NCBI RefSeq assembly: GCF_040564635.1
Contig: NZ_CP159837.1
Span: forward strand, 3,397,001 to 3,461,000
From: Planktothricoides raciborskii GIHE-MW2
GTDB lineage: Bacteria > Cyanobacteriota > Cyanobacteriia > Cyanobacteriales > Laspinemataceae
Direction of reading: 5' to 3'
Length of the DNA: 64,000 nucleotides
Within the stretch, counting starts at the first letter, position 1. The number at the start of each line of letters is the position of its first letter. Made by a program: the position numbers and the translations under genes. The notes beneath the pieces are model-generated. The model worked only from the letters and a program-made list of their open reading frames with translations, searched no databases and had not been told where the DNA came from. Below, in pieces: positions 56,146 to 64,000 of the stretch.

Positions 56146-58509
56146 TTAGCCGGTTAACTGATGCTGAATCAACGGACGGAGGCTATTCAGACCAGCAGCG
56201 ATCGCCGAACCATTGTGAATCATCGTGGCGACGAGGGGATTGAGTCCCACAGTAGTGGCTAAACCCAATGCCAGTAAGTTTGGCCCGACGACTAAAACGG
56301 TATTTTCGGAAATCACCCGTTGGGTATCTTGGGCGATCGCGATCGCCTCTAACAATGCCTCCAAATCATTATTCATCAGCACCACATCAGCGGTTTCCCT
56401 GGCGACATGGGAACCATCCTCGAAGGACACCGAGACATCCGCATAAGCTAAGGCGACGGAATCATTCAACCCATCTCCCACAAAAGCCACGGTTTTGCCT
56501 GCCCGGTGTAAATCTCGCACAATTCGCGCTTTTTCTTCGGGAAAAGCTTCCGCATGGACGTGACCGGGACTAATGCCCAACTGCTCACCCACTGCCTGAG
56601 CCCGCATCTGAGAATCGCCGGTCAGCAAATGCACTTCTATGCCCAAGTCCCGCAAGCGACGAACCAGGGGGGCACTTTCTGGACGCAGGGGATCGGTATA
56701 AGAAATCTGGCCTATCAGTTGTCCATCACAGGCAACATAAATTGTTGATTGTTGATTGTTGTTGGTTGGTGGTTGGTGGTTGGTGGTTGTTGGTTGGTGG
56801 TTGGTGGTTGTTGGTTGGTTCTCGCACCCCTGCACCTCTGCACCTCTGCACCTCTGCTCCCCTGCACCTCTGCTCCCCTGCACCTCTGCACCTCTGCTCG
56901 TTGGCGGCTCCTCTGCTCCTCTGCTCCCCTGCACCCCCGCACAAGAGATCCCCGTTAAGGCTGGCAAATTAATCCCCGCTTCGGCTAAAAGTTTCTGGTT
57001 GCCTACCAAGACCGTTTGACCGTCGATTTCGGTACGCACGCCGCTACCGACTTCATAATGCCAGTCTTGGCGTTGGGGGATGGTCAGACCGCGATCGCAG
57101 GCTGCCCGGACAATGGCCTCAGCCACAGGGTGAGTAATGCGTTGTTCTGCTGCTGCTGCCAACTGTAACACTCGGTCTGAGGAAAAGCCGTCAGCAACGG
57201 AAATCACGTTTGACAGTTGGATATCTCCCTGGGTCAGGGTTCCGGTCTTATCAAACACCATCGTATCTACTTCCGCCAACTGTTCCAAGGTGCGACCACT
57301 GCGGACTAAAATCCCATGTCGGGTGGTATGGTTCAATGCCCCTAAGAAAGCGGTGGGAATGGACACGCGAATTCCGGTGACAAAATCCAGGGTAAAAATT
57401 GCCGCCACTCGTGCCGGATCGCGGGTAGTCATCAAGACCACTGTGCCCAAGACCAAAACGGGCAGAATCAGGCGATCGGCGATTTTCTCTGCATAGTTCG
57501 CCATGCGGGTGTCATGGACTGGGGCTTGACTTAATAGGGCAAGAGATGCTGCCGCCCTGGTTTGATTGCCGACTTTTTCGGCGATCAGCCTTAATTTACC
57601 CGATCGCACCAAAGTAGAAGCATAGACATAAGTCCCCACTCCCGCCACAATTGGCATGGATTCCCCGGTTAATTTTTGTTGGTCAACGGTTGCTTCACCG
57701 GCTTGGACGGTGCCATCTACGGGAATTTGTTCCCCTGGGTAAACCTGGACGATTTCTCCGACTTGTACCTGGTCGCTCTTAATTTTGACAATTCTATCCT
57801 CCCGTACCACCCAAGCAAAATGACCAATAGTATCCAACAGGTCAGCAGTTTGCATCGCCGTAGAACGGGCGGTTTGTTCCCGCAGGACATCGCCGATTCC
57901 GTGAAGGGTCATCATCAATGCGGGAGTGATTAATTTCCCTTGAATGGTACTTAAGGAAATTGCCATTAAGTCTAAGCAGTCGATATTCAATCGATGCTCA
58001 ACAAAAACGCTATTGCTGGCTCGTTGGACGACGGGCAAGACACAAGCCCCCAACACTCCAGCGGCGGCAACTTTCAGCAATGGGTAGGGCCAGCGTTGAC
58101 TGGCAACCGCCAACAAAGTCGCCAGAATCGGTAAGCGCAGGCTTGACCAGCCCTCATCTTCGTCTTCGGTGTCTGATTCGGCGTTACATTCTGGTTCAGA
58201 ATTGGTTCCGGGCAGCTTTGCGGAGCAATCTCTCGGTATTAATGGGTTGTCAAAGAAGCGCAAAAAATAATCTGGGGCAGCGATCGCGGCAATACTTTCC
58301 GGGCGATATTGGATGGCGATCGAGGCACAAGCCTGATTAATCCGCACGCTGATAATCCGGGGATCGGCTTTGAGGCGATCGGTCAGTTCTTTCGTCGGCT
58401 GGGAATTCCATAAAGCAGGCATTCGCAAACGAATGCGTCCCGGAATCGCATGAATCACTTGTACCCCACCAACCAAAGAACTTACATGGAGTACAGAACA
58501 ATCGGTCAT
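56146..58509 (-). CDS. Metal P-type ATPase without the CPC motif
   Basis: A 787-residue P1B-like ATPase. An N-terminal HMA-like domain lacks CxxC (QVIHAIPGRIRLRMP, about 15-75). Actuator GESMPI, phosphorylation Asp420 in DKTGTLT, nucleotide-domain HP (THPVAEA) and hinge GDGLNDS are all present. Where transporters of this class have CPC in the sixth membrane helix, this has FVTGIRVSIPTAF. About 68 residues (522-589) in the catalytic domain are low-complexity repeats (RGAEVQGSRGAG, TTTNHQP). The transported metal is unknown. Neighbours are an HMA-like protein and two DUF5132-like proteins. Confidence 0.85.
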   Translation of the reverse strand: MTDCSVLHVSSLVGGVQVIHAIPGRIRLRMPALWNSQPTKELTDRLKADPRIISVRINQACASIAIQYRPESIAAIAAPDYFLRFFDNPLIPRDCSAKLPGTNSEPECNAESDTEDEDEGWSSLRLPILATLLAVASQRWPYPLLKVAAAGVLGACVLPVVQRASNSVFVEHRLNIDCLDLMAISLSTIQGKLITPALMMTLHGIGDVLREQTARSTAMQTADLLDTIGHFAWVVREDRIVKIKSDQVQVGEIVQVYPGEQIPVDGTVQAGEATVDQQKLTGESMPIVAGVGTYVYASTLVRSGKLRLIAEKVGNQTRAAASLALLSQAPVHDTRMANYAEKIADRLILPVLVLGTVVLMTTRDPARVAAIFTLDFVTGIRVSIPTAFLGALNHTTRHGILVRSGRTLEQLAEVDTMVFDKTGTLTQGDIQLSNVISVADGFSSDRVLQLAAAAEQRITHPVAEAIVRAACDRGLTIPQRQDWHYEVGSGVRTEIDGQTVLVGNQKLLAEAGINLPALTGISCAGVQGSRGAEEPPTSRGAEVQGSRGAGEQRCRGAEVQGCENQPTTTNHQPTTTNHQPPTNNNQQSTIYVACDGQLIGQISYTDPLRPESAPLVRRLRDLGIEVHLLTGDSQMRAQAVGEQLGISPGHVHAEAFPEEKARIVRDLHRAGKTVAFVGDGLNDSVALAYADVSVSFEDGSHVARETADVVLMNNDLEALLEAIAIAQDTQRVISENTVLVVGPNLLALGLATTVGLNPLVATMIHNGSAIAAGLNSLRPLIQHQLTG
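56742..56945 (-). repeat. Low-complexity repeat insertion inside the P-type ATPase gene
   Basis: About 200 bases of GGTTGGTGGTTG heptamer-like repeats followed by CACCTCTGCACCTCTG/CTCCCCTG repeats. All frames stay open and the ATPase frame continues on both sides. The same sequence types occur outside genes at 55934-55957 and 56100-56140. Confidence 0.9.
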
Positions 58510-59995: not shown

Positions 59996-60413
59996 TTGTA
60001 ATGACCTCCATATTTGGCGTGCTTGGCGTTTAGATCGGTTCAGATTTACTGAGTATTTTACAGCGGTTTTGAAATTCATAAACCACAGACAACTTATGTA
60101 AAATATTTATGTAGAGGCGAATCGCGAATCGCCTCTACAGGGGGCTGTGGTTTACTCGCAGCAGATTTGCGCTGTAAACTGAATCTGAACCAATAAATCG
60201 GTAAACTTTTTTTATGGTTAAGTAAAAGGTAAAAACTCCTTGATGAGTTATTTTTTAGCGGATGGGCAATACACGATCACTTGGTATTGCCTAAAAAAAC
60301 AAATTCTATCAAATTTTTGCAGCAGCCAGACGAGAGCCATTTCCGTCAAAAAATAATGATGATTCATCAATTTTTTTCGGCTATGATGGAGTCGATCTGC
60401 TAATCGGTTTGTC
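59996..60413. other. Intergenic region with a 28-bp palindrome
   Basis: A palindrome-like GTAGAGGCGA...TCGCCTCTAC at 60111-60138, and GGCAATAC/GTATTGCC around 60267-60293 flanked by TTTTTTAG and TAAAAAA, a possible two-way terminator. No gene is seen. Confidence 0.5.
60111..60138. repeat. 28-bp palindrome, GTAGAGGCGA variant
   Basis: 10-bp arms with an 8-base centre ATCGCGAA. It has the same total length as the other members of the GTAGGGG family. Confidence 0.8.
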
Positions 60414-61082
60414 TCATTCAACAATAAATTCAGTCTGAGTCAGCAGGCGAACGCCCAAAGACATTTTCACCTGCCAAGTCCCTGGTTTTGCCTTCTCGCC
60501 CAATTGGTAAGAACAAGCACTTATCCAAACATTATGATTAATCAGTTTTGTTTGATAGAGGTTTTGATGTACGACTTGACCTGTGGGGTCAATCCAATCA
60601 CAACTGAGTGATAATTTCTTATCTTTGGGGGGGTTTTGCAAGGTCACGCGGTAGTAGAGGTGGGGACGTTCTTGACGATTAAAAACAACAAAGTAGTTGC
60701 CATAATCATTGGACAAGATGATCCGAGTCTTAGACGGTGGGGGATGAGCAATTCGATTGGCGATCGCCTCTTTCCGGTCATTAACCCAAATGATACTGGA
60801 TATCATCGCCCCCACTAATCCTACCTGTGCAATTGCGGCCATTCCGCGCAGCAGATCCGCAAAGGGAATCGCCAAACTGGGTTTTTGGCCTTTTCTCGCG
60901 ACGGGTAAGGCTTCTCGGCGTTCGATCAAGACCCGGACGCGATCGACTAACCGATAAGGAAGGGGCAATTCTGGCCAGATATCCTTGACTTCTTCCCAGT
61001 CTAGTTCTCGGCCATCGTGAGACAGTGGTTCCACTGCGACGATCGATCGGGCTACTGGGGATGCTGTAAGTTTTTGATTCAT
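60414..61082 (-). CDS. Hypothetical membrane-anchored protein
   Basis: A 222-residue protein: a cytoplasmic N terminus (about 1-75) with WEEVKDIWPELPLPYRLVDRVRVLIERREALPV, one membrane helix (about 80-100: AAIAQVGLVGAMISSIIWV) and a C-terminal beta-rich domain (about 118-222) with LSCDWIDPTGQVVHQN and GTWQVKMSLGVRLL. It resembles uncharacterised cyanobacterial proteins. I cannot name a family with confidence. Confidence 0.6.
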   Translation of the reverse strand: MNQKLTASPVARSIVAVEPLSHDGRELDWEEVKDIWPELPLPYRLVDRVRVLIERREALPVARKGQKPSLAIPFADLLRGMAAIAQVGLVGAMISSIIWVNDRKEAIANRIAHPPPSKTRIILSNDYGNYFVVFNRQERPHLYYRVTLQNPPKDKKLSLSCDWIDPTGQVVHQNLYQTKLINHNVWISACSYQLGEKAKPGTWQVKMSLGVRLLTQTEFIVE

Positions 61083-61494
61083 GGCCCAATGTTGAATCCC
61101 GTTCTTTTTATTGTAGCGGTTTTGACAGATTTTTTAACTTTTTTATCGATCAAACGAGAGGAGCCACAGGTGCGATCGGGTCGGAGCGGTTCAGAGGGTC
61201 AGGGAGGGATCGATTACGAAATCAGAAATTTTTCAAAAATTATTTCAAAAAAAGCTATAATAAAAAACTATATTAAACTCAAGTTTTAATTTCAATAAAC
61301 TTAAAAAAATACTAGAATAATATCTAAAGTTATTTTTTAGGCAAAAAAATTATGATTTTTATGTAAAATATGACGCAGTTATGGCGATAACCTTAGCAAT
61401 AGCAATGGAATAATAGATCGTCAAAAATAACAATAGTCTTATTTTTACTTTTTTTGGTATTAATTTAAATAATTAATCTTAAAACATAAGAAAT
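61083..61494. other. Very AT-rich intergenic region
   Basis: Almost only A and T from about 61215 to 61494, contrasting with the neighbouring genes. It holds the promoter of the following two-gene module. No gene or clear repeat is seen. Confidence 0.55.
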
Positions 61495-62664
61495 ATGCAG
61501 CAATTTTCTATAACCAATCTAGGCCAAATCAAAAAAGCCGATATCACCTTTGGGTATCTCACCCTGTTGGTCGGGCCACAAGCTACGGGCAAAAGTATTT
61601 TATTACAATCCATAAAACTAGCGATCGATAGTGGATATATTGTTAATAACATCAAAGCAAATGGATATGAATGGGAATCAGATACCGGAAATAACCATGA
61701 AAATATTGGCAATTTTATTGACTTTTATTTTGGCGAAGGAATGCGTAGTATTTGGGGCAGAGAGACTAATTGTTGTTTAGATCGACAATCTATTAATATT
61801 GCGGATTTATTAAAAAGTAAAATTGAGCCAAAAGAAAAGCTGTTTTATATGCCAGCACAGCGGGTACTCACCCTGGACAATGGATGGCCTAGATCGTTTC
61901 TTAGCTTTGAAATTGGCGATCCTTATGTGGTGAGAAATTTTAGCGAGCATCTCCGGCTATTGATGCAAAAAGATTGGGGAAATCAAGGCAGTCCTATTTT
62001 TCCCCAAAAAGGTCTATTAAAACAATATCTGAGTGAAGCCTTAGATCGGAGTATTTTTCACGGTGCTCAGGTAAAAATTACTACGATTAGAATGCGTAAA
62101 CGCATTCTACTTAATCTGCAAGGTAATACTCTATCTTTCATGGCATGGTCGGCTGGACAACGAGAATTTATGCCGTTACTTTTGGGCTTTTACTGGCTGA
62201 TGCCGAAATCACCGCCGTGGAAAAAATCCAACATCGATTGGGTGGTGATAGAAGAACCAGAAATGGAGTTGCATCCCGAAGCAATTTTATCGGTAATTAT
62301 GATGTGCTTGGAACTGCTACATCGAGGATATCGGGTGATCGTTTCGACTCACTCTCCGATTTTATTGGAAGCAGTTTGGGCAATTCGCTGCTTCCAGGAA
62401 GAAAATTATCAGAGTGAATATTTTTATAAACTGTTTGATGTAAACGAGTCTTTAGAGTTGACGATATTATTTGATGATATCGTTAAAAACAAGCAGTTTT
62501 TTACTTACTATTTTCAACAGGAAAAAACCGGGGTTTTTGTGAGAGATATTTCATCGTTAGATCCTTTCGCCAATGACTCGGCGATCGCGAATTGGGGTGG
62601 CTTGACCAGCTTTAGTAGTCAAGTCTCTGATGTGGTGTCACAAGCAATTCAGGAGAAAGCATGA
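61495..62664 (+). CDS. ABC-type AAA ATPase (AAA_21/OLD-like)
   Basis: A 389-residue SMC/ABC-type ATPase: Walker A GPQATGKS (27-34), signature-like SAGQREFMPLL (about 218-228), Walker B VVIEEPEMELHPEA and H-loop VSTHSPILLE. No nuclease domain follows inside the protein, unlike OLD enzymes. It overlaps the next gene by 4 bases (ATGA). Such ATPases with a small partner are typical of antiphage modules (PARIS- and Gabija-like logic). Which one this is, if any, is unknown. An AT-rich leader suggests acquired DNA. Confidence 0.8.
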   Translation: MQQFSITNLGQIKKADITFGYLTLLVGPQATGKSILLQSIKLAIDSGYIVNNIKANGYEWESDTGNNHENIGNFIDFYFGEGMRSIWGRETNCCLDRQSINIADLLKSKIEPKEKLFYMPAQRVLTLDNGWPRSFLSFEIGDPYVVRNFSEHLRLLMQKDWGNQGSPIFPQKGLLKQYLSEALDRSIFHGAQVKITTIRMRKRILLNLQGNTLSFMAWSAGQREFMPLLLGFYWLMPKSPPWKKSNIDWVVIEEPEMELHPEAILSVIMMCLELLHRGYRVIVSTHSPILLEAVWAIRCFQEENYQSEYFYKLFDVNESLELTILFDDIVKNKQFFTYYFQQEKTGVFVRDISSLDPFANDSAIANWGGLTSFSSQVSDVVSQAIQEKA

Positions 62665-63095
62665 GTTTTACAGAAGCTATCAAGAATAATCCTCTGTTAG
62701 CAAATTACTTAAAAAGTGGATTAAAAGCTCTAGGTTCTAATAGCAGTAAAGTCAAACCTGAAGATACTAAAAAATGTGAAGGCCGCGTCGATATTGATAT
62801 GGCACTTCAATCAAAATATCCCAACGAACCCCGCTGGGACTATGCAATTGGATATGACGGTAAAACCCATTTTATCGAAGTACATCCTGCGGATACCAGT
62901 GAAGTTCAGTCAGTTCTGAATAAGCTTCATTGGTTAAAAAATTTTTTGAGTCAAGATGCTCCTCAATTAAATCAAGAACCAAAGAGTTTTCACTGGGTTG
63001 CCTCTAGTGGCAACCACATATTACCAAACAGTTCTCAAGCAAGGAAGTTAGCTAAATCAGGGATTAAGGTGATTGGACAACTTACTCTATCTTAA
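62661..63095 (+). CDS. Small partner protein of the ATPase, possible restriction-like fold
   Basis: A 144-residue protein translationally coupled to the ATPase. Its centre reads GRVDIDMALQSKYP, RWDYAIGYDGKTHFIEVHPAD. An Asp (60) followed after 12 residues by Glu73-Val-His75 on a hydrophobic strand recalls the D...ExK arrangement of PD-(D/E)xK nucleases, with His for Lys. The end (KSGIKVIGQLTL) is strand-like. I do not recognise the family; the nuclease idea is inference. Confidence 0.6.
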   Translation: MSFTEAIKNNPLLANYLKSGLKALGSNSSKVKPEDTKKCEGRVDIDMALQSKYPNEPRWDYAIGYDGKTHFIEVHPADTSEVQSVLNKLHWLKNFLSQDAPQLNQEPKSFHWVASSGNHILPNSSQARKLAKSGIKVIGQLTLS

Positions 63096-63300
63096 TTTTT
63101 TGTTACTTATTACGCATTTGTCATAAAAGCGACGACAACTCACGAATCACCCATAACCGTCAACCAAACTAAATCATTGAAACATCCTAGGCATCAAATA
63201 TCGGGTCTGGTTGCAAAATTACTGTAAGATGATAAGTTTGTAGTCATCGGCAAATGACCCGGAAATCATCTAATTATTTGGAGTATTGGGAGAAAGTTTT

Positions 63301-64000
63301 ATGCGAATTCTAATTATGGGTGGCACCCGATTTATTGGGGTTTATTTAACAAAAATCTTGGTAGAAAAAGGCCATGAAGTTGTGTTATTTAATCGCGGCA
63401 AAAAACCCGCCCCGGTGGAAGGGGTGCAGCAAATTCACGGAGATCGCACCGACCCAGAACAGATCAAAACCAAATTAGCCCATGAAAGTTTTGATGCGAT
63501 TTTTGATAACAATGGCCGCGAACTCAGCGATACCCAACCCTTAGCAGAAATTTTCCAAGGCAAGGTGAAACATTTTGTCTATGTCAGTTCGGCGGGAGTT
63601 TATCTTAAATCCGATCAAATGCCCCATGTGGAAGGGGATGCGGTCGATCCAAAAAGTCGTCACAAGGGCAAATTTGAAACGGAAAGTTATCTGGAAAAAC
63701 AAGGACTTCCGTTTACTTCCATTCGCCCAGTTTATATTTACGGCCCGCAAAACTATAACCCTCTAGAAGCCTGGTTTTTTGACCGCATTATGCGCGATCG
63801 CCCCATCCCTATTCCCGGCAACGGAATGCACATCACCCAACTCGGTCACTGCCAAGACCTTGCCAATGCAATGGCAGCAGTTCTGGGTAACTCCCAAGCG
63901 ATCGGTCAAATTTATAACATCTCTGGCGATCGCTGTGTCACCTTTGACGGACTAGCCCGTGCTTGTGCGGCGGCGGCAGGAAAATCTCCTGACTCGATTC
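63301..64000 (+). CDS. NAD-dependent epimerase/CSP41-like protein (3' truncated by window edge)
   Basis: Extended short-chain dehydrogenase. The nucleotide loop GGTRFIGVYL lies at the N terminus; YVSSAGVY (about 98-105), SIRPVYIYGPQNYNP and GNGMHITQLGHCQDLA follow. The catalytic Tyr-x3-Lys is not in its usual form, as in the CSP41 (chloroplast stem-loop binding) branch, which binds RNA in plastids and has cyanobacterial homologues. The frame is open to position 64000, so the C terminus is missing. Epimerase activity is uncertain. Confidence 0.8.
   Translation, partial: MRILIMGGTRFIGVYLTKILVEKGHEVVLFNRGKKPAPVEGVQQIHGDRTDPEQIKTKLAHESFDAIFDNNGRELSDTQPLAEIFQGKVKHFVYVSSAGVYLKSDQMPHVEGDAVDPKSRHKGKFETESYLEKQGLPFTSIRPVYIYGPQNYNPLEAWFFDRIMRDRPIPIPGNGMHITQLGHCQDLANAMAAVLGNSQAIGQIYNISGDRCVTFDGLARACAAAAGKSPDSI

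Follow-up and report, generated by a model that had tools for sequence, protein, structure and literature searches.

Two overlapping genes near the right-hand end of the window (the whole 64,000-nucleotide stretch of DNA that was analysed, from a source genome of 7.2 Mb in a single contig) probably make up a mobile antiphage cassette of the candidate type PDC-M56, in which an ATPase would gate a nuclease. Gene A (PDC-M56A; 61495–62664, plus strand, ATG start) encodes an ABC/Rad50-like ATPase of 389 residues, and gene B (PDC-M56B; 62661–63095, plus strand, ATG start) encodes a protein of 144 residues whose predicted structure makes it a probable PD-(D/E)XK-fold nuclease. The stop codon of gene A and the start codon of gene B share the sequence ATGA (62661–62664, plus strand), just as a sequence-only reading of this DNA had described the two open reading frames, and this overlap may couple their translation. 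An identical 4-base overlap, judged from the ends of the open reading frames, recurs at five loci from other sequences (L004, L005, L014, L016 and L017), and at other loci the overlap is longer, the genes abut or a short gap separates them. The pair stands behind a leader (61220–61494, plus strand) with a G+C content of 18.5% versus 43.5% for the whole window; this value is lower than that of every one of 2549 sliding windows (275 bp, step 25), and so the leader is as unusually AT-rich as had been proposed. The leader is a probable promoter region, and promoter-like sites between 61000 and 63400 number 7 versus a mean of 7.4 in shuffled sequence, which is no excess. A reading of the leader as an RNA gene was rejected because the interval 61000–63400 has no Rfam match at the gathering threshold.

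Both proteins match their PADLOC family models near full length, and the genes are adjacent on the same strand. Gene A matches PDLC04710 (PDC-M56A) with an E value of 1.3e-171 over residues 1–388 of 389 and model positions 1–381 of 382, and gene B matches PDLC04711 (PDC-M56B) with an E value of 8.7e-60 over residues 2–143 of 144 and model positions 7–150 of 151. Since both match a catalogued system over their full length, the pair falls under an existing name, contrary to the earlier suggestion that it may be a new type; it corresponds to the candidate PDC-M56 of PADLOC-DB v2.0.0, which has the same two-gene arrangement and from which it does not differ by these models. The exact term 'PDC-M56' was not found in the literature searched, which had preprints outside its scope, and the spellings 'PDCM56' and 'PDC M56' were not found among the matches listed. 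In the accessible parts of PMC12988326 and PMC10855318, PDCs are described as systems proposed by guilt-by-embedding, and the accessible part of the latter presents them as putative and without experimental validation. What is added here for PDC-M56 is a predicted fold, a set of invariant residues, an empty site and the embedding among defence genes, although these may in part be contained in the primary preprint.

The assignment of gene A to a defence-type ATPase stands. In addition to PDC-M56A it matches Pfam AAA_15 and AAA_21, both above cut-off, and it contains the two motifs picked out from the sequence, SAGQREFMPLL and THSPILLE. Among 18 aligned A proteins the Walker A residues G27, G32, K33 and S34, the signature S219–Q222 (SAGQ), the Walker B residues E253–E256 (EEPE) and the H-loop residue H286 are invariant, as are I352, S353, L355, W367, G368, G369 and F373 in the C-terminal part that lies past the Pfam ATPase match. 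An AlphaFold model of moderate confidence (pLDDT 76.7) has as its closest solved folds in Foldseek Rad50, retron Eco8, PtuA of Septu and retrons, and RecN, with a best E value of 5.7e-8. Sequence matches in the PDB (n=16) comprise OLD, PtuA/retron, other AAA family, ArtP-type transporter and GajA chains. Gene A also matches the PADLOC family NsnB with an E value of 8.5e-19; the meaning of this family name was not found in the literature, among the matches listed.

The protein encoded by gene B is less easily placed by sequence. PDC-M56B is its sole PADLOC match at a limit of E 10, no Pfam or NCBIfam family scores above cut-off, and its only sequence match in the PDB is at chance level (E 0.28). 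Pfam and PADLOC searches to the same limit of E 10 return no PtuB, HNH, AriB, Toprim or helicase model; Toprim, HNH or helicase identity was rejected because no such model matches, in agreement with the earlier statement that the partner is neither Toprim nor helicase. A predicted model built from ten input sequences has a pLDDT of 92.6 and includes, among other elements, strands 39–44, 61–65 and 68–74, helix 79–98, strand 108–113, helix 125–132 and strand 135–138, and the alpha-beta-beta-beta-alpha-beta order of the PD-(D/E)XK core is present in it. The top seven Foldseek matches are Card1 (twice), Cdn1 (twice), Avs3, the small subunit of R.BspD6I and CRISPR ancillary nuclease 2, all of which we take to be restriction-endonuclease-like, some being so titled. 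Lower ranks contain the nucleases BstEII, Hjc, Mus81 and cap-snatching endonucleases together with unrelated entries (a mitoribosomal protein, APOBEC and NADH dehydrogenase). No match reaches 1e-3, the best E value being 2.2e-3, the query TM-score is at most 0.41 among the best 50 matches, and a search of a viral fold library gives a best E value of 1.2e-2. A restriction-endonuclease-like (PD-(D/E)XK) fold is thus likely but not proven for gene B. The structure search is led by such enzymes rather than by folds unrelated to nucleases, and the proposal of a nuclease-like partner is consistent with the predicted fold.

Conservation within the family points to a candidate active site. Among 19 aligned B sequences, which include the window copy and extend down to 36% identity to it, G41, D46, W59, D60, Y61, E73, H75, K88, L92, L96 and W112 are invariant; D44 is invariant in the first ten sequences and no longer so in the 19. 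The motif D60...E73-x-H75 recognized from the single sequence is therefore conserved, and D46 and K88 join the set. Judged from sequence, D46, D60 and E73 are putative acidic metal ligands. H75 occupies the position of the ExK lysine, with histidine in place of the usual lysine, and K88 lies 15 residues past E73 in helix 79–98, which follows the motif. As described in the accessible part of PMC2940753, cap-snatching endonucleases occur in two versions, one taking its lysine from a strand (DxK) and the other from a helix (ExT.....K), and the pattern H....E...PD....ExT.....K given there serves as the reference for a helix-borne catalytic lysine. In residue order gene B resembles the ExT.....K version as that part of the source presents it, and it may be functionally similar to these enzymes. 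These observations bear on the possibility that the product of gene B has no catalytic activity and, as a structural partner or a binder of nucleic acid, only recognizes a target for A, as the histidine at the expected lysine position and the weak fold match might suggest. Invariance of H75, K88 and the three acidic residues over this range of divergence, and the precedent in the cited text for catalysis by a lysine from a helix, make such a partner very improbable.

Several observations indicate that the two genes belong together. All 10 loci found in genome_contigs have gene A immediately 5′ of gene B, and at one of them (L003, Planktothricoides sp. SR001) both A and B are identical to the window's pair, which places the host among the cyanobacteria, in or close to that genus. 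This order, together with the near full-length matches of both proteins to curated HMMs, argues that the pair is more than a chance association. Pairwise identities of A and B are correlated (r 0.90, Mantel p 1e-4; 18 pairs, 153 comparisons), which is expected for genes inherited together and is no proof of contact. The cyanobacterial group is recovered alike in the trees of A and B, which place L012, L063, L008, L009 and L034 differently, with support that is partly weak. L019, which is the same place as L007, and L003, which duplicates the window, were excluded from the alignments. Matches in four genomes (G085, G746, G486 and G612) were not counted as intact pairs; only that of G612 is in the 19-row B alignment, and none is among the 18 A/B pairs.

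Comparison with a congener (G001) reveals an empty site. The variable block of the window (61177–63212, 2036 bp), which contains the leader, gene A and gene B, is replaced in G001 by 151 bp, and the flanking genes are adjacent there. In a blastn alignment of window positions 60000–64000 with contig C62 of G001 (L082), DNA identity is 94% over 1003 columns on the left flank and 97% over 788 on the right, and the left edge of the block is fuzzy, with weak similarity (66%) continuing to ~61253. Both flanking genes lie outside the system: the left one (60414–61082, minus strand, 222 aa) has a 93% identical orthologue at the empty site, and the right one (63286–63999, plus strand, extending past the window end), presumably epimerase-like, has a 97% identical orthologue beside the empty site in G001 and is matched in all 13 genomes that were searched, its own included. 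Gene B is also absent elsewhere in the G001 genome. The cassette was thus gained or lost between close relatives, in either direction. Six weak inverted pairs were found in a search for transposon ends, none of them at the ends of the block, and no target-site duplication was seen by eye at its junctions. As a separate observation, the window contains two in-frame tandem-repeat arrays at 56744–56942, with units of 7 bp (GTTGGTG) and of 8/16/24 bp (GCACCTCT-type), which encode a low-complexity stretch of ~65 residues within an open reading frame (56146–58509, minus strand, 787 aa) that we take to be heavy-metal P-type ATPase-like.

The wider distribution is sparse. Gene B is present in 1 of 59 genomes of the close set, namely the window's own, and at E 1e-3 in 6 of 386 genomes of the cyanobacterial phylum (own included), one of these being a fragment; gene A is found at E 1e-30 in 5 of the 386 (own included), and these five are also the ones with a full B. 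A B match occurs in 7 of 395 genomes of the phylum to which a Parabacteroides MAG belongs, four of them with intact pairs, the chosen centre included, and PDC-M56B is found in 0 of 14 control genomes. Partial copies take several forms: G085, the fragment in the cyanobacterial phylum, has 36 C-terminal positions of B (E 1.9e-4), and of the other three matches in the second phylum G612 has a B fragment and no open reading frame with the SAGQxEF motif of A, and G746 has a weak 64-position match and no A or B open reading frame that was found. In G486 (L036:785–1161) A is intact and B lies in two frames, for which decay and assembly error are indistinguishable. The pair is found at least in Cyanobacteria, Bacteroidales, Ignavibacteriales and Saprospiraceae and on an Opitutaceae plasmid. 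This patchy presence, with the empty site in the congener, is the opposite of the core-genome distribution that the sequence-only reading had said would count against a defence module. It also bears on a role in DNA repair or recombination, in which a Rad50/RecN-like ATPase and a resolvase-like nuclease would serve a host function. The presence of Rad50 and RecN among the closest folds of A and of Hjc and Mus81 in the Foldseek list of B is what such a pair would predict, but a core-gene or repair function was rejected as the main reading because of the sparse presence and the empty site, and we regard it as highly unlikely.

Mobile elements provide a further context. Among 72,556 plasmid records gene B occurs in one, directly after the A-like open reading frame OPIT5_00420; the plasmid is typed mobilizable, and both open reading frames match PDC-M56 models. 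The plasmid copy of B (L063:8001–8468; CP007054.1 91125–91589) is an open frame that matches PDC-M56B with an E value of 7.2e-31 and has no annotated feature in PLSDB. No match was found in 50,697 phage records, and the 12 stretches of IMG/VR that fit a pattern encode no relative; a phage-borne origin was rejected on these grounds. A compact pair with a plasmid copy and an empty site could instead be a toxin-antitoxin-like or element-stabilizing module, with B as a toxic nuclease, A as its ATP-dependent restrainer and phage defence secondary or absent, and the resemblance of A to AbiLi (PADLOC) and to AAA_21, the 'putative AbiEii toxin' of Pfam, is compatible with this idea. However, B occurs in only one of the plasmid records, four genomes (G000, G290, G380 and G540) carry the pair on contigs >4 Mb, usual antitoxins are far smaller than A, and three relatives or more (L032, L039 and L045) have restriction-type genes beside the pair. 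A module of this kind is accordingly unlikely, and an antiphage function is favored.

The genomic neighborhoods give a mixed picture. Around the window pair no defence island is visible when ten neighbor proteins are compared with PADLOC: nine have no match at 1e-5. The tenth (236 aa, L026:17694–18404), ~7.6 kb past B and beyond the window, matches PycTIR/TIR-effector models (3.5e-12) over residues 44–154 only, in the first part of the models, and more likely represents a cyclic-nucleotide-binding domain than a defence effector. The survey for defence islands thus came out in part as anticipated, with defence genes near the pair in some relatives and none visible around the window copy. In L045 (4246–10448) the A-B pair is embedded between AAA_5 and DUF2357-PDDEXK_7 genes on the same strand, whose products are presumably McrB-like and McrC-like, and this embedding fits the guilt-by-embedding idea behind PDCs. 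Neighbors in L032 are a type III methyltransferase, HEC-07, PtuA, PtuB and a UvrD helicase; L043 has PDC-M01A and PDC-M01B, L039 an HNH type II-like enzyme and L044 an ATPase like PD-T4-4_A, and in L033 a UvrD gene directly follows B, as in L032. A defence-type neighbor is therefore found in 6 of 17 loci (L032, L033, L039, L043, L044 and L045), a descriptive count for proteins picked by eye, and L008 has a weaker TIR-effector match (2.2e-12). Of 20 neighbor proteins chosen by eye and scanned singly, eight had no defence-type match at 1e-10; no match at this limit was obtained for the L045 DUF2357 protein, the L044 232-aa, L042 1011-aa, L033 305-aa and L032 1009-aa proteins or those from L041 and L027, and the L040 neighbor gave a GlgB-type match only. 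The 127 neighbor proteins of the 17 loci match 110 PADLOC families versus 26 for 81 control proteins (12 regions); as these counts are of families and are swollen by many models per protein, no enrichment of defence neighbors is claimed. According to the accessible part of PMC13356809, PDC systems are typically poorly associated with other defence loci.

The UvrD genes of two relatives warrant description in their own right. At L032:7583–9643 and L033:2764–4824, a gene encoding 686 aa, part of which is a UvrD helicase, begins ~10 bp past B. Its N-terminus looks RelE/ParE-like by eye, and in the L032 copy this region has no Pfam match. The resulting order of ATPase, nuclease and UvrD is reminiscent of Gabija.

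The mechanism we propose takes Septu and retron effectors as its analogy: A would sense or restrain in an ATP-dependent manner, and B would be the effector. As a Rad50/PtuA-like ATPase, A would form a dimer around ATP and keep B bound or in position. A trigger supplied by phage infection, such as foreign DNA, a protein of the phage or a depletion of nucleotides, would change the state of A. B, presumably a small metal-dependent nuclease with D46, D60 and E73 as ligands, H75 where the ExK lysine usually stands and the helix-borne K88, would then be released or activated to cut nucleic acid, and the phage or the infected cell would be stopped. A bolder version of this proposal, which we advance only as a speculation with the odds against it, is that PDC-M56 is a distinct class in which a Rad50/PtuA-like switch that lacks Toprim and HNH parts is linked to a minimal PD-(D/E)XK enzyme with a D...D...ExH...K site and a helix lysine. 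In such a class B might cut RNA rather than DNA, since a catalytic lysine moved to the helix is a layout described for the RNA-cutting viral cap-snatching endonucleases.

Comparison with established systems places the pair within a familiar group while setting it apart from each member. It resembles Septu and retron effectors in combining a Rad50-like ATPase with a separate small protein, here a predicted nuclease, and PtuA is among the closest folds of A and among its PDB sequence matches. The partner of PtuA in Septu, PtuB, is of the HNH kind, and gene B differs in having neither a PtuB nor an HNH model match; in L032, HNH_I-A was matched together with PtuB. With PARIS it shares the AAA_15 core of A, which matches the AriA model at 9.8e-19 with a best stretch that is partial, whereas AriB is Toprim-type and gene B has no AriB model match. 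The ATPase core is also like that of Gabija, and the UvrD helicases directly after B in L032 and L033 have GajB-model matches; however, GajA has a Toprim half and Pfam finds only ATPase families in A, and the gene after B in the window has no PADLOC match, so that there is no helicase there. Card1, Cdn1 and other restriction-endonuclease-like enzymes are the top structural matches of B, but Card1-type enzymes carry a CARF part, whereas B is a protein of 144 residues that lacks one and in which ExH, together with a helix lysine, takes the place of ExK. The analysis as a whole turns PDC-M56 from a bare model name into a testable candidate, for which it supplies five residues, a fold prediction, the comparison with an empty site and a proposal for an ATPase gate. 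If the proposal is right, PDC-M56 would add another effector fold to the group of ATPase-plus-nuclease defence systems that includes Septu, PARIS and Gabija.
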